Shown here: piece after piece, positions 36,271 through 40,094 of the stretch
Numbering within the stretch: the first letter of the stretch is position 1
Layout of the letters: every line of letters begins with the position of its first letter
From: Terriglobia bacterium
GTDB lineage: Bacteria > Acidobacteriota > Terriglobia > Acidiferrales > UBA7541
Assembly: GCA_020073585.1 (NCBI GenBank)
Contig: JAIQEV010000027.1
Span: 1-47,265 of the forward strand
DNA: 47,265 bases
Direction of reading: 5' to 3'
Notes under the pieces: generated by a model
Databases searched by the model: none
The model's input: only the letters and a program-made list of their open reading frames with translations
Told to the model about the DNA's origin: nothing
Position numbers and translations under genes: made by a program

Positions 36271-37602
36271 TTACCCAGGAGTGACCCCGAGCGCGGTGGG
36301 ATGAAAGACGGTGGCGTAGAGGAGGATGAAGGTGAGGACGATCATGGCGATGGCCGTGGTCCAGGCCACCAGATTATCGCCGAACTTGTTCGTATGCTCG
36401 CCCAGCAGGTCCTTGCGGTTGATGAGCAGAAGCATGAAGACCAGGACGATGGGCAGCCAGATGCCGTTGCCGACCTGCGAGAGGATGAGGATCTTAAAGA
36501 GCGGGGCATGCGGGAGGAGAATGAAGCCCGCGCCCACGACGATGAGCACGGTATAGAGCCAGTAGAAGATGGGGGCATCCTTGAACTTGTGATCGATACC
36601 GGCTTCGAAGCCCAGGCCTTCGCAGACGACGTGGGCAGTGGAGAGGGGGAGGATGGAAGCGGCGAACAGCGAGGCGTTGAGCAGGCCGAAGGCAAAGAGG
36701 TAGCTGGCCCAGCGTCCGGCAAGGGGGACGAGGGCTTTGGCGGCGTCGGCGGCGTCGGTGATGTTGCGGTGGCCGGAGACGTACAGGGTGGCGGCGGTGC
36801 ACACGATGATGAAGAAGACGATGACCATGCAGGTGATACTGCCGGCCAGGACGTCGGCGCGGGCTTGCTTGTACTGGCGGGGGCCGACACGCTTTTCGAC
36901 GAAGCCCGCCTGGAGATAGAAGAACTGCCAGGGGGCAATGGTGGTGCCGACCAGCGCGGTGAGGGTGAGCAGGTAGCCGGAATCGAATTGGATGCTGGGA
37001 ATGGCGACGTATTTGGCGGCCAACAGCCACTGGGGCTTGGCGAGAATGGCGGAAAACAGATACGTCAGGTAAAAGGTGCAGGCGATGAGAAAGATTTTTT
37101 CCACCTGCTTGGAGGTGCCGCGGACGACGAGAACCCAGACGAGCAGCGCGGCGAGGGGGACGGAAACGTATTTGCTGACCCCGAATATCTGCATGGCCGC
37201 GGCCACGCCGGCGAATTCGGCGACAACGTTGAAGAGATCAACGAAAAAGCCGCCGGCCATCATGAAGAACGTGGAGCGGAAGCCGAACTCCTCGCGGATG
37301 AGGTCGGAAAGGCCCTTGCCGGTGACCACCGCCATGCGCGCGCACATCTCCTCGGTGACATAGAGGGCGATGGTCATGGGAATGAGCGACCAGAGGAGAG
37401 CGTAGCCGTACTGGGCGCCGGCGAGGGAGTAGGTGGAGATGCCGCCGGCATCGTTGTCCACGTTGGAGGTGATCAGGCCGGGCCCCAGGACGGCCAGGAA
37501 GAGGGCCAGGCGGCGGCGCCAGCTGCGGCCGCGCTTGCGCAGTTCTGCGCCGCGATCGCGCCAGGCCTGCACACGAGAAGTAAGCTGCATCCAATTCATC
37601 AT
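36271..37602 (-). CDS. Nramp-family transporter, Nramp-related magnesium transporter (NRMT)-like
   Basis: The 443-residue protein has about eleven membrane segments and the Nramp layout. In helix 1 GPG (40-42) is followed eight residues later by DAGG (51-54), where transition-metal Nramps have DPGN. In helix 6 TIAPWQFFYLQ (221-231) replaces the usual TIMPHN, so the metal-binding methionine is Ala223. Loss of both soft ligands is described for the magnesium-transporting branch. The gene is immediately downstream of a soluble MgtE-N/CBS gene, which also points to magnesium. ATG at 37602 or 37599. Transport of Mg2+ (or Mn2+) is inferred; the usual DMT/MntH function is unlikely. Confidence 0.85.
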   Translation of the reverse strand: MMNWMQLTSRVQAWRDRGAELRKRGRSWRRRLALFLAVLGPGLITSNVDNDAGGISTYSLAGAQYGYALLWSLIPMTIALYVTEEMCARMAVVTGKGLSDLIREEFGFRSTFFMMAGGFFVDLFNVVAEFAGVAAAMQIFGVSKYVSVPLAALLVWVLVVRGTSKQVEKIFLIACTFYLTYLFSAILAKPQWLLAAKYVAIPSIQFDSGYLLTLTALVGTTIAPWQFFYLQAGFVEKRVGPRQYKQARADVLAGSITCMVIVFFIIVCTAATLYVSGHRNITDAADAAKALVPLAGRWASYLFAFGLLNASLFAASILPLSTAHVVCEGLGFEAGIDHKFKDAPIFYWLYTVLIVVGAGFILLPHAPLFKILILSQVGNGIWLPIVLVFMLLLINRKDLLGEHTNKFGDNLVAWTTAIAMIVLTFILLYATVFHPTALGVTPG

Positions 37603-37746: not shown

Positions 37747-38985
37747 CTACGCACGGACGAGCCGCGAGACCACGTCGTCCACGGTGATGGTGCCGATGGG
37801 CAGATTGCCGTCATCCACCACCGTGAGCATGCGCAGGTTGTACTTGTCGAACAGCTCGAAAACTTCCTTTTCCTCGGCGTCGGGCTTCACGCTGACGAGC
37901 GGCTCGGGCCGGAGATCCTTCATGAGCTGGCCGGGCGCGGCCAGGAGCAGGCGGGCCACGGGCACAATGCCGGAAAACTGCGCGGTGGTGTCCACGAGCA
38001 CCACGGTATCCAACTGGTCGAGGTTGAGGTCCTGGCCGCGCATCCAGGCGAGGACCTCGTCGCGGGTGGCGCTTTCGCCGACGAAGGCGAATTCCGGGTT
38101 CATCATGCCGCCGGCGGTGGCGGCGTCGAACTGCAGGAGTTCGCGCACTTCCGCGGCTTCTTGGCCGGGCATCTCATCGAGGAGTTCGTCGGAGGTTTCC
38201 TGGGGCAGCTCGGCGAGGACGTCGGCGGCGGCGTCGGGGGCCATCTCTTCGAGAATGTCGGCGGCTTTTTCGGGATCGAGCTTTTCGACGATCTGGGTGG
38301 TCAGGCGGGCATCGAGCTCGCCGAGTACGCCGGCGGCGGTCTCCTCGTCGAGGGAGGAGATGATGGCCTGGCGCTCGGAGGCGGAGAGGTCCTCCATGAT
38401 GTCGGCGAGGTCGGCGGGATGGATATCCTCGAGTTTTTCGTGGGTGATTCGCAGCTTGACGCGGCGCAAGGGGTCGGGCTCGATGAGGTTGACGAACTCC
38501 CAGAGAATGGCGCGGGCGGGCAGCTTGCTCTGGAGCTTGCGGATGAGCGCGGGGGAGGCGATGCCCTGGAGCAGGCGGCGAAAAGCACCGGGCAAGCCCA
38601 CGTCCACCTGCAGGAGGCGGAGCTCGACGTTGCCGTTGACGCGCTGCTCGGCGAGGTCCACGTCGTTGACGCGGACGACTTTGCGGCCGCTGGTGTCAAT
38701 GATCTGCTGGTCGAGGAGGTCCTTGCGGACGGCGAGCCAAGCCTCGTTGGGCTCGTAAAGATCCAGGGCCCGCTCGCTGCAGTTCAGGCGCAGGTTGCCG
38801 GGAGAGATGGAAGCGATCTGGTCGTGGCGGGCGACGAGGGGCTGAAAACGGCCCCGCGAAAGCAGAAAATGAGCGATGCGGTTGGGGGCCTCGGCGGGCT
38901 CAATAAAAAGTTCGCGCACGCGGCCAACGAAGTTGCCGTGCGTGTCGTAGGTTTCCGCGCCCATGAGTTCGGTGGCGTGCAGCAT
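37747..38985 (-). CDS. Soluble PRC-barrel / MgtE N-terminal / CBS domain protein
   Basis: The 412-residue product has no membrane segment. Residues 1-75 are PRC-barrel-like (YDTHGNFVGRVRELFIEP), and a similar piece follows at about 92-140. Residues about 175-290 form the MgtE N-terminal superhelix (LEDIHPADLADIMEDLSASE, LDPEKAADILEEMAPDAAADVL). Residues about 295-412 are a CBS pair (GGMMNPEFAFVGESATRDEV, PIGTITVDDVV). In MgtE channels these same domains sense cytoplasmic magnesium and gate the pore. Here the pore is missing and the next gene encodes an Nramp-like transporter. I infer a magnesium sensor acting on that transporter. It starts at the ATG at 38985. Confidence 0.88.
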   Translation of the reverse strand: MLHATELMGAETYDTHGNFVGRVRELFIEPAEAPNRIAHFLLSRGRFQPLVARHDQIASISPGNLRLNCSERALDLYEPNEAWLAVRKDLLDQQIIDTSGRKVVRVNDVDLAEQRVNGNVELRLLQVDVGLPGAFRRLLQGIASPALIRKLQSKLPARAILWEFVNLIEPDPLRRVKLRITHEKLEDIHPADLADIMEDLSASERQAIISSLDEETAAGVLGELDARLTTQIVEKLDPEKAADILEEMAPDAAADVLAELPQETSDELLDEMPGQEAAEVRELLQFDAATAGGMMNPEFAFVGESATRDEVLAWMRGQDLNLDQLDTVVLVDTTAQFSGIVPVARLLLAAPGQLMKDLRPEPLVSVKPDAEEKEVFELFDKYNLRMLTVVDDGNLPIGTITVDDVVSRLVRA

Positions 38986-39006
38986 AAAACGAGTCCTCGA
39001 TCAAAG

Positions 39007-39023
39007 TGACCGCGAAGCGGTCA
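39007..39023. repeat. 17-bp palindrome, family B (site 1)
   Basis: TGACCGC-GAA-GCGGTCA, 21 bp upstream of the MgtE-N ATG. First of three within 70 bp. Confidence 0.7.
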
Positions 39024-39031
39024 AATCTTTG

Positions 39032-39048
39032 TGACCGCAAAGCGGTCA
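39032..39048. repeat. 17-bp palindrome, family B (site 2)
   Basis: TGACCGC-AAA-GCGGTCA; its centre is 25 bp from that of site 1. Confidence 0.7.
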
Positions 39049-39058
39049 ACAATCTCTG

Positions 39059-39075
39059 TGACCGCTTTGCGGTCA
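39059..39075. repeat. 17-bp palindrome, family B (site 3, opposite centre)
   Basis: TGACCGC-TTT-GCGGTCA; the same site read on the other strand, 27 bp from site 2. Confidence 0.7.
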
Positions 39076-39117
39076 ACAAAACCGAGATGGTCCTGCGCGC
39101 GGCGCCGGGGGCGGGAG

Positions 39118-39156
39118 AAATAAAAAGCCCGCGAACCCCAGCAGGGCGGCGCGGGC
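39118..39156 (-). terminator. Intrinsic terminator upstream of the MgtE-N/Nramp operon
   Basis: On the minus strand GCCCGCG (39156-39150) pairs with CGCGGGC (39133-39127), followed by TTTTTATTT (39126-39118). The 16-base loop holds CTGCTGG, which can instead pair with CCAGCAG at 39174-39168. Confidence 0.8.
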
Positions 39157-39361
39157 AAGTCCTTATGCTGCTGGAACTTACCTCTAGCCGCGGGCAGCCC
39201 CTCCCCGAACAACCGGCCGGCAGGCTGTGCTCCGTCCATCCACAATCGCTATCGGCCTGACCAGGCGAACCCTTACCCCACAGCGCTCCGCGAGGGAGCT
39301 ACTAGGGCCAGGGTCGTGTTCGCTGGGCGTGCTCATCGAGCAGAATCCACCTCTGTATGCG

Positions 39362-39378
39362 TGACCGCGAAGCGGTCA
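39362..39378. promoter_or_regulatory. 17-bp palindrome, family B (site 4), operator-like position
   Basis: TGACCGC-GAA-GCGGTCA begins about 3 bases downstream of the predicted RNA start site. A bound repressor would block this promoter. It may also fold as the 5' hairpin of the RNA. Confidence 0.55.
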
Positions 39379-39387
39379 ACACTTGTA

Positions 39388-39416
39388 GAAATAAGCTGCG
39401 CACGCAACAAAGTCAA
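39388..39416 (-). promoter_or_regulatory. Sigma-70-like promoter for the structured RNA
   Basis: On the minus strand TTGACT (39416-39411) and TATTTC (39393-39388) are separated by 17 bases. The -35 matches consensus at five of six positions and the -10 at about four. The start site should fall near 39381. Confidence 0.5.
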
Positions 39417-39452
39417 GGCTAGAGTGGCTGGAAAACGAAGTTTTTTAGGGGG

Positions 39453-40094
39453 TTATGGCCTTTTAGCAAAGAGCATGTCGCGCGGAGGCTGGCCCCGGCG
39501 GCGGCAATCGTCGAGGTAGAGCTGCAGATAGTTGGTGAGGAGATAGTCGCGGCGGGAATAGCCCAGGAGCGCCGCGGCACGGTCGATGGCCGCAGCAGGC
39601 CCCTCGAGTTCGACAAAGGTGCCGATGGGGGTCTCGTCGAGCTCGATCAGGAGGCCGCGGGCCCAGCGCACGGCGGCGGGCAGGAGATAGGTGGTGCGGT
39701 ATTTCTCGTAGCGGAACCAGCCGCGCAGGCCGAGGCCCTCGAAAATCCTGGTGAGCAGCTCCGCGCTGGCCACTTCGACTTCCCTCTCTTCGCGGACCTT
39801 GTGGGGGCCCGCGGCGTCCACCACGGAGGCGACGGGGCTCTTGAAGGTGCAGATGACGCGCGCGGGCGGTGCGCCGCGCTTTTTGCGGCTTCCCTGCCGC
39901 GGGGTTTCGGTGCGAATGCGCAGAAGCTGGCCGTGCTTGGCGAGGCCGCCGTCGGGAGTGTCGAAGATGACGTTGAATTCGTGGACGCGGACGGGGGCGC
40001 TGCCCCGCGCGGCACGGGCATGGAGCTTGCGCAGGGCGCGCAGGAAGAGCTTGCGGTCGGGAATGCGCAGCTTGATCTCGGTTTCGCGGGCCAT
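39453..40094 (-). CDS. CYTH domain protein
   Basis: The 213-residue protein begins MARETEIKLRIPDRK, the ExExK signature of CYTH enzymes (class IV adenylate cyclase / thiamine triphosphatase fold). Alternating charged strands follow (LRIRTET, RVICTFKSPV, VREEREVEV, LLIELDETPIGTFVELEGPA), lining a tunnel for a triphosphate. Bacterial members act as class IV adenylyl cyclases or as inorganic triphosphatases; sequence does not separate them. The ATG at 40094 is directly before the motif. It is divergent from the oligopeptidase gene, and a much longer in-frame opening upstream is the antisense shadow of that gene. Confidence 0.85.
   Translation of the reverse strand: MARETEIKLRIPDRKLFLRALRKLHARAARGSAPVRVHEFNVIFDTPDGGLAKHGQLLRIRTETPRQGSRKKRGAPPARVICTFKSPVASVVDAAGPHKVREEREVEVASAELLTRIFEGLGLRGWFRYEKYRTTYLLPAAVRWARGLLIELDETPIGTFVELEGPAAAIDRAAALLGYSRRDYLLTNYLQLYLDDCRRRGQPPRDMLFAKRP

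Follow-up and report, generated by a model that had tools for sequence, protein, structure and literature searches.

The operon of mgtE-N and nrmT in a Terriglobia bacterium (Acidobacteriota) is probably controlled by a leader-peptide transcription attenuator in which the ribosome acts as the sensor of Mg2+. The element lies on the minus strand of what we call the window, the whole stretch of 47,265 nucleotides that was analysed (contig JAIQEV010000027.1, assembly GCA_020073585.1). An initial annotation had read this region as an attenuator with mutually exclusive pairings. A cis-acting attenuator is indeed supported, by a leader ORF and by folding of the RNA under a masked ribosome footprint, but the pairing put forward at that time is not the conserved one. 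The accompanying suggestion of a new metal-responsive leader was apparently right in that the element is probably metal-responsive; a structured metal-binding RNA is probably the wrong form for it, the sensing part being, in our reading, the leader ORF.

The leader ORF, its promoter and its relatives

The leader ORF (MSTPSEHDPGPSSSLAERCGVRVRLVRPIAIVDGRSTACRPVVRGGAARG) has 50 codons and lies at 39184..39336 on the minus strand, with the stop codon TAG at 39186-39184; comparison with relatives and tests of neutrality and frame support it. The stretch of about 260 bases of RNA-like sequence described previously exists, but 153 bases of it are this ORF with its stop, and its structure is not unusual: the fold z-score against dinucleotide shuffles was -1.40 for 271 bases (17 of 200 shuffles were as good) and -0.16 for a 225-base version.

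Homologues of mgtE-N were found in 33 of 36 genomes of the genus and in 252 of 299 genomes of the class at E 1e-60. The leader set consists of the regions upstream of mgtE-N in 72 genomes of the window's family, f1: the genus contributed 32 of its 33 mgtE-N genomes, and the 40 remaining ones are those from the rest of the family in which mgtE-N was matched; the same region in 22 genomes outside the family served as the comparison set. An objective scan, which accepted any ATG ORF of 20-90 codons with a strong terminator within 95 bases, found ORF and terminator at 65 of the 72 family loci, 59 of them with Glu/Asp-Pro in residues 2-15, as against two of the 22 outside loci, none of which had the motif. 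By curation, the leader is present at 68 of the 72 family loci, in the same place and orientation; eleven plus two of the curated leaders were chosen by eye, and automatic counts accompany the curated ones. Duplicate loci (L001, L025, L027 and L029) were excluded, and the folding tests also leave out L073 (65 of 66 leaders).

Four family loci have no leader by curation. At L054, the sequence between mgtE-N and the end of the contig is made up of tandem repeats with a unit of about 30 bases, and at L068 there are 13 codons only. The other two, L061 and L074, represent both g30 genomes and carry a TTGACA 67 bases before mgtE-N; for these genomes, the absence of the leader predicts expression free of attenuator control. 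In an order-level relative, L072, a 35-codon ORF with a late VPDP lies 103-211 bases upstream of mgtE-N and is followed by a terminator; this ORF is possibly a distant form of the leader. Two records titled Betaproteobacteria and Bacillota (L130 and L165) contain the locus at 76 and 67 per cent identity to the window's protein and are probably mislabelled metagenome bins.

At the DNA level, 16 of 61 genomes, among them that of the window, matched the element in a search; the element was complete, and 86 per cent identical, in one. The matches in L023, L024, L026, L028, L030 and L031, where tblastn found no mgtE-N, look like chance; L023, L026 and L028 have one conserved coding-like stretch in common. 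The plasmid database searched with the element yielded no match.

A typical leader peptide of the genus reads MSTSNELEPGP...GWGGFTGG, and N-termini from other genera include MSYSLDQEPLP, MSESEELEPFP, MESSSNPEPGG and MERSSNSEPGS. Among 21 genus leaders of equal length, pN/pS was 0.88 for codons 2-13, 1.0 for codons 14-42 and 0.65 for codons 43-50. The 66 curated leaders contain 0, 144 and 89 stops in frames 0, 1 and 2, a count biased by the fact that these leaders had been selected as ORFs. A fairer test is provided by GGyAAGT, a landmark present in 28 of 32 genus leaders: its distance from the ATG takes seven values (142, 148, 151, 154, 175, 184 and 193 bases) and is equal modulo 3 in 27 of the 28. 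The sole exception, L040, has one base missing after the stop. A Shine-Dalgarno (SD)-like 4-mer stands ahead of the leader ATG in 37 of 66 leaders, compared with 64 of 396 control windows. The frame is kept while the middle codons evolve neutrally; these are the marks of a leader gene in which the act of translation, and not the peptide produced, is what counts. A real small protein was rejected on the same neutrality of the middle codons. Control of termination by the leader ORF is very likely.

The promoter was read in the sequence as a -35 box TTGACT (39411..39416, minus strand) and a -10 box TATTTC (39388..39393, minus strand) separated by 17 bases, exactly as first annotated; transcription is predicted to start at about 39381 on the minus strand. 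This assignment is supported by relatives, since TTGACW is present somewhere upstream of the leader ATG in all 66 curated leaders, mostly at a distance of 50-85 bases. In many relatives the -10 region, equally far from TTGACW, reads TATCAA/TATCAC or TACTAG/TAACAA. A consensus scan of 38900-39600 did not report the leader promoter because its -10 box is too weak for the scan threshold.

The leader 5' UTR contains a palindrome, TGACCGC-NNN-GCGGTCA (39362..39378), which is a copy of a genome-wide repeat. Four TGACCGCNNNGCGGTCA palindromes lie around the attenuator (39007-39023, 39032-39048, 39059-39075 and 39362-39378), where 0.02 would be expected in the window, and three of them are clustered between the terminator and mgtE-N. 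Forty-one other sites of the genome match the leader element solely across this palindromic repeat.

Codons 6-11 of the leader, E-H-D-P-G-P (39304..39321, minus strand), form an acidic-Pro motif which we propose as the ribosome-destabilizing sensor. [DE]P occurs in residues 2-15 of 61 of the 68 curated leaders, whereas 2000 residue permutations gave a mean of 6.6 and a maximum of 17, and the acidic residue is residue 8 in 46 of the 68. An automatic choice of ORF, which took the longest one starting with ATG from promoter to terminator, put the motif within the first 20 residues at 53 of 59 parsed loci (of 72). The longer form [DE]-x-[DE]-P is found in 39 of the 68 leaders (31 of 32 in the genus, eight of 36 elsewhere), and [DE]x[DE]PxP in 28 of 32 genus leaders versus seven of 36 others. 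The seven leaders without [DE]P are those of L019 (EVKPGP), L055, L066, L069, L075, L076 and L086.

Several observations on the leaders count against our main reading. The doubly acidic form of the motif is mostly confined to the genus, and neither g30 genome has a leader. The leaders of g27 (L063, L065, L066, L075 and L086) are short, with 33-34 codons, and keep the terminator and a C-terminal PGI; three of the five have no Glu/Asp-Pro though leader and terminator are kept, which makes this group a natural test of the necessity of the motif. Moreover, the motif never has more than two acidic residues, whereas PMC9718836 tested sequences with 10 D and yeast ORFs with 4-8 D/E. By analogy, we lean slightly towards ribosome destabilization at the acidic-Pro motif as the sensing event. 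The natural variants, 61 leaders with the motif and seven without it, would allow tests of the destabilizing residues and their positions.

A second conserved feature inside the ORF is an SD-like run, GGGGAGGGG (39198..39206, minus strand), proposed as a pause site. Of 66 leaders, 54 carry GGAGG, GGGAG or AGGAG in the interval -36..-9 relative to the stop; the controls gave a mean of 12 and a maximum of 23 in 500 codon permutations, and 13 of 189 windows from the leader body. The run starts mostly at -19 (23 leaders) or -23 (17 leaders), and the codons used differ between genera. None of the nine counted leaders of g27, g29, g31 and g32 has it. We suggest that the run, by slowing the ribosome, may keep it over the antiterminator strand until the terminator emerges.

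Competing helices and the proposed role of ribosome position

The intrinsic terminator hairpin GCCCGCG...CGCGGGC (39127..39156, minus strand), with TTTTT next to it at 39126-39122, is confirmed in the sequence. It was also reported by the consensus scan, which gave three terminator-like sites on both strands of 701 bases versus 0.6 expected in shuffles. The second GCCCGCG noted upstream of it is present as well. The initial annotation had further paired the terminator loop CTGCTGG with an upstream CCAGCAG. This pairing exists in the window but is not conserved: L010, the closest relative, retains six of its seven bases, and in the other 64 of the 66 curated relatives the pairing is missing. 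Being complete in the window only, it was rejected as the switch pairing.

Conservation is seen instead for another pair of mutually exclusive helices. The 5' strand of the antiterminator (39176..39189, minus strand) consists of GGC (39189-39187), the stop TAG, an A and GGTAAGT (39182-39176); its 3' strand (39148..39160, minus strand) consists of ACTTGCC (39160-39154) and GCC (39150-39148) and overlaps the 5' arm of the terminator. GGTAAGT pairs with ACTTGCC and, outside this helix, the last codon GGC pairs with GCC of the terminator 5' arm, so that the stop codon is spanned. In alignment A1 (27 genus sequences), 98.8 per cent of antiterminator cells are paired, falling to at most 55.4 per cent if the strand is slid by one to three columns; the corresponding value for the terminator in the genus alignment is 94.7 per cent. 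A search of 36 genus genomes for the antiterminator pattern placed 24 of 31 matches at the leader locus; the seven elsewhere are about as many as the five given by a reversed control pattern. One match, G026:C409:6110-6140, comes from a genome of the genus that yielded no mgtE-N, and may reflect either chance or an assembly gap.

Covariation, proposed at the outset as a check, is absent within the genus and receives modest support between genera. Neither antiterminator nor terminator covaries beyond chance within the genus, because the helices hardly vary. The comparison between genera rests on 34 curated leaders. Where the arm is GTCG, the leader end has CCGAC in seven cases, CTGAC in one and CCGGC in one; where it is GCCGG, CCGG stands at the matching place of the leader end in 13 and CCGAC in none. 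In four more leaders (g27 and g31), CCGG occurs elsewhere only, and eight (g29, g2 and three of g26) have no such pentamer. A duplex-energy test of own versus foreign arms gave a genus-level permutation fraction of 0.027, a weak result; the own arm was preferred over 95 per cent of foreign arms at 12 of 66 loci, and nine of 66 loci beat 95 per cent of shuffled segments.

The effect of a ribosome on these helices was modelled at 65 loci by masking a footprint from -15 to +13 on the leader stop. The terminator probability rose in 41 of them and fell in seven, the mean going from 0.65 to 0.84. A control mask at -60..-32 raised it in 18 and lowered it in 20 (mean 0.67); a second one at -44..-16 produced a small rise, from 0.65 to 0.71, which we count against the main reading. 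For the window itself, the probability was 0.43 when free, 0.79 with the stop mask, and 0.38 and 0.36 with the two controls. In a minimum-energy version of the test, the terminator forms at 61 of 65 loci with the ribosome and at 46 of 65 without it; at 55 of 65, however, some pairing of the arm with upstream sequence persists under the mask as long as the 3' arm has yet to be synthesized, which also counts against our reading. As the mask at the stop raises the terminator probability, the prediction is that termination is favoured by a ribosome arriving at the stop and not by one that is lost early. The switch appears to depend on the position of the ribosome.

We propose the following course of events. 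RNA polymerase would start near 39381, and the leader ORF would be translated at once. If Mg2+ is sufficient, the ribosome would pass the acidic-Pro motif at codons 6-11, cross a spacer of indifferent amino-acid sequence and slow at the SD-like run. So slowed, it would sit over the last codons and the stop, covering the 5' strand of the antiterminator; the sequences and the folding model suggest that the terminator would then form and the operon would be off. If Mg2+ is low, the ribosome might, by analogy with MgtL, stall or drop off at the acidic-Pro motif and leave the end of the leader free. The antiterminator could then pair with the 5' arm of the terminator, and, again as with MgtL, the transporter genes would be transcribed.

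The presumed operon, its likely signal and other explanations

According to Pfam, the first gene of the presumed operon (37747..38985, minus strand) encodes a protein of 412 residues with PRC-barrel, MgtE_N and CBS domains, in which no MgtE membrane domain was found; the NCBIfam mgtE model covers it only over the N-terminal positions 15-249 of the 450 in the model. An Nramp-related transporter with the residue signature of NRMT (Mg2+) is encoded at 36271..37602 on the minus strand. Its closest solved structure is 7qia (E 2.9e-100; the next PDB match has 3.3e-28), which we take to be EleNRMT, and the NDAGG and TIAPW of the window protein are the same residues as in 7qia. They fit the changes described for EleNRMT, Asn to Gly in helix 1 and Met to Ala and His to Trp in helix 6 (PMC8806188). 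The Nramp gene is present in 77 of 80 named relatives; among the 76 that cover both sites, DAGG is found in 71 and T[IVL]AP[WY] in 72.

A further indication comes from family f6 of the same class, where an M-box precedes the homologous mgtE-N gene; the leader attenuator stands where f6 has this riboswitch before the homologous operon. In Bacillus subtilis, the M-box controls mgtE by Mg2+ (PMC4072509). M-boxes were found in 27 of the 299 genomes of the class, 26 of f6, one of f7 and none of f1, the f1 genomes in this search, which used stricter filters, numbering 71 if the draw was the same as for the mgtE-N search. At least 15 of 31 M-box matches lie 72-257 bases upstream of an mgtE-N homologue on the same strand, and a Rfam search of 20 class loci gave M-boxes in two, both of f6. 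Of four genomes (G184:C121, G181:C312, G168:C345 and G175:C430), three have a same-strand M-box some 1.8 kb ahead of mgtE-N, and in the fourth the starts of two M-boxes are 1.9 kb from each other.

The annotation of a probable Mg2+ operon is thus supported by the NRMT signature and by the M-box of f6, and is weakened by the A. capsulatum homologue, a member of the same transporter group that has no riboswitch. The metal of the operon is uncertain because this homologue acted mainly as a Mn2+ transporter: the Mn2+ defect was fully rescued, and the Mg2+ defect was rescued only in the presence of low millimolar Mg2+ (PMC4072509). We nevertheless regard Mg2+ as the likely signal, and the attenuator bears on the question of which metal mgtE-N/nrmT operons handle.

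The same attenuator could instead respond to proline supply, to EF-P activity or to the general speed of translation. Ribosomes would then slow at Pro codons if charged tRNA-Pro or EF-P is scarce; there is a precedent in the mgtCBR leader of Salmonella, whose mgtP senses charged tRNA-Pro (PMC8092293). In the 21 genus leaders, the Pro that follows the acidic residue is invariant, a second Pro follows two residues on in 36 of 68 leaders, and the motif Pro codons are CCT in 43 and CCC in 11 of 61. However, most leaders have no run of Pro codons, and the acidic residue is kept while its codon varies (GAA 28, GAG 28, GAC 3 and GAT 2). In addition, the target resembles a metal transporter, and in f6 a Mg2+ riboswitch precedes the homologous gene. 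We consider a signal other than Mg2+ of this kind unlikely.

Another conceivable sensor is an arrest peptide whose genus-conserved C-terminus would stall the ribosome at the stop under the influence of a ligand. The pN/pS of 0.65 at codons 43-50 within the genus does point to some protein-level constraint. Yet the C-termini vary between genera, being GWGGFTGG in one, REARPGLK in another and PGI in a third, and the conserved nucleotides are those of the SD-like run and of the antiterminator strand, which can explain the conservation; an arrest peptide is quite improbable.

The promoter and the terminator form a complete unit, and the element might be a small gene or small RNA that is independent of the operon, ends at a terminator of its own and lies beside it by chance or history. 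This reading, which includes the new small RNA suggested in the initial annotation, is probably wrong and in our estimate very improbable. It would have to accommodate the same place and orientation at 68 (curation) or 65 (objective scan) of 72 family loci, the concentration of the genus antiterminator pattern at the leader locus (24 of 31) and the lack of selection on the middle of the peptide. No promoter was reported between the terminator and mgtE-N either, in a scan that also misses the leader promoter.

The initial annotation had recognized no known riboswitch core, and the searches of known RNAs agree with it. At gathering thresholds, Rfam gave no match in the whole window or at 20 loci of relatives (18 from the family); with E up to 10, nothing credible was found in the leader stretch, where the best match (E 0.039) was a microRNA family, scoring far under the gathering threshold of that family. 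The M-box covariance model (RF00380) had no match in the window or in the 20 relatives' loci. As for the check on 6S or another housekeeping RNA, none was found in the leader stretch, including 6S RNA (RF00013). The only 6S match of the genome is a sub-threshold one on another contig, L032 (G000:C38:12260-12448; 37.6 bits, cut-off 46.4), possibly its divergent 6S RNA. A metal-binding structured RNA with an incidental ORF would suit an intrinsic terminator before a probable Mg2+ operon and the M-box at that place in f6, but it is hardly credible and was set aside on the Rfam result, on folding not clearly better than that of shuffles and on a coding signature: the frame is conserved, while in its middle the element shows no conservation as an RNA.

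Comparison with known systems

In attenuators of the trp/his type, the position of the ribosome on a leader ORF chooses the antiterminator or the terminator. The proposed Mg2+ attenuator likewise lets ribosome position choose the helix; it differs in having no run of codons for a single amino acid, and the quantity sensed appears to be ribosome stability, not charged tRNA. Its leader of about 50 codons is also longer than MgtL, which presumably has fewer than 20, and its motif lies usually at about codons 6-11, that of MgtL at codons 2-5.

MgtL of Escherichia coli contains EPDP, where ribosomes drop off if Mg2+ is low, with transcription of mgtA as the outcome (PMC11282234, PMC11552253); direct sensing by RNA is not fully excluded in the account of PMC11552253. 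Both systems have a short ORF before the gene of a known or, here, probable Mg2+ transporter, with an acidic-Pro motif near the N-terminus, and our proposal shares the logic that full translation leads to termination and failed translation to expression (PMC11282234, PMC11552253). In the targets of EttA, acidic residues stand next to each other, or with one residue between them, close to the start of the protein (PMC11282234); the E-x-E/D-P of the genus leaders is arranged in this way. Unlike MgtL, which uses Rho, the leader described here has an intrinsic terminator, though Rho might act as well, and an antiterminator that includes its own end; it also has an SD-like run before the stop, and belongs to a different phylum and transporter family. 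By eye, there is no sequence likeness to MgtL beyond the motif, and Rfam gave no match.

In mgtQ, of the Salmonella mgtCBRU operon, Asp/Glu codons appear to destabilize ribosomes and thereby raise expression of the Mg2+ transporter (PMC8092293). It is similar in being a small ORF with acidic-codon ribosome destabilization, as proposed here, and dissimilar in having eight codons, lying inside the operon and acting on translation of mgtB (PMC8092293). The M-box (RF00380) resembles the leader in its location, as it too precedes the mgtE-N homologue in f6 and, elsewhere, nrmT operons (PMC4072509); it is, in contrast, a metal-binding RNA and was unmatched in the window and in the f1 genomes of the class search. 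The main text of PMC4072509 does not contain the term 'leader peptide', and in searches of the open-licence literature no description of the leader attenuator was found.

In the papers cited here, ribosome destabilization as an environmental sensor is an enterobacterial story, that of MgtL and mgtQ. We tentatively suggest, as a proposal whose merits and difficulties nearly balance, that leader peptides which sense Mg2+ evolved a second time, independently, in the Acidobacteriota. In this class the stability of the ribosome itself would be the sensor, with an early acidic-Pro test, a delay over a neutral spacer, an SD-like pause holding the remaining ribosomes on the stop codon and a readout by the intrinsic terminator. 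If true, such a convergent design in a distant phylum would suggest that MgtL, mgtQ and the leader described here embody a general solution to Mg2+ sensing.
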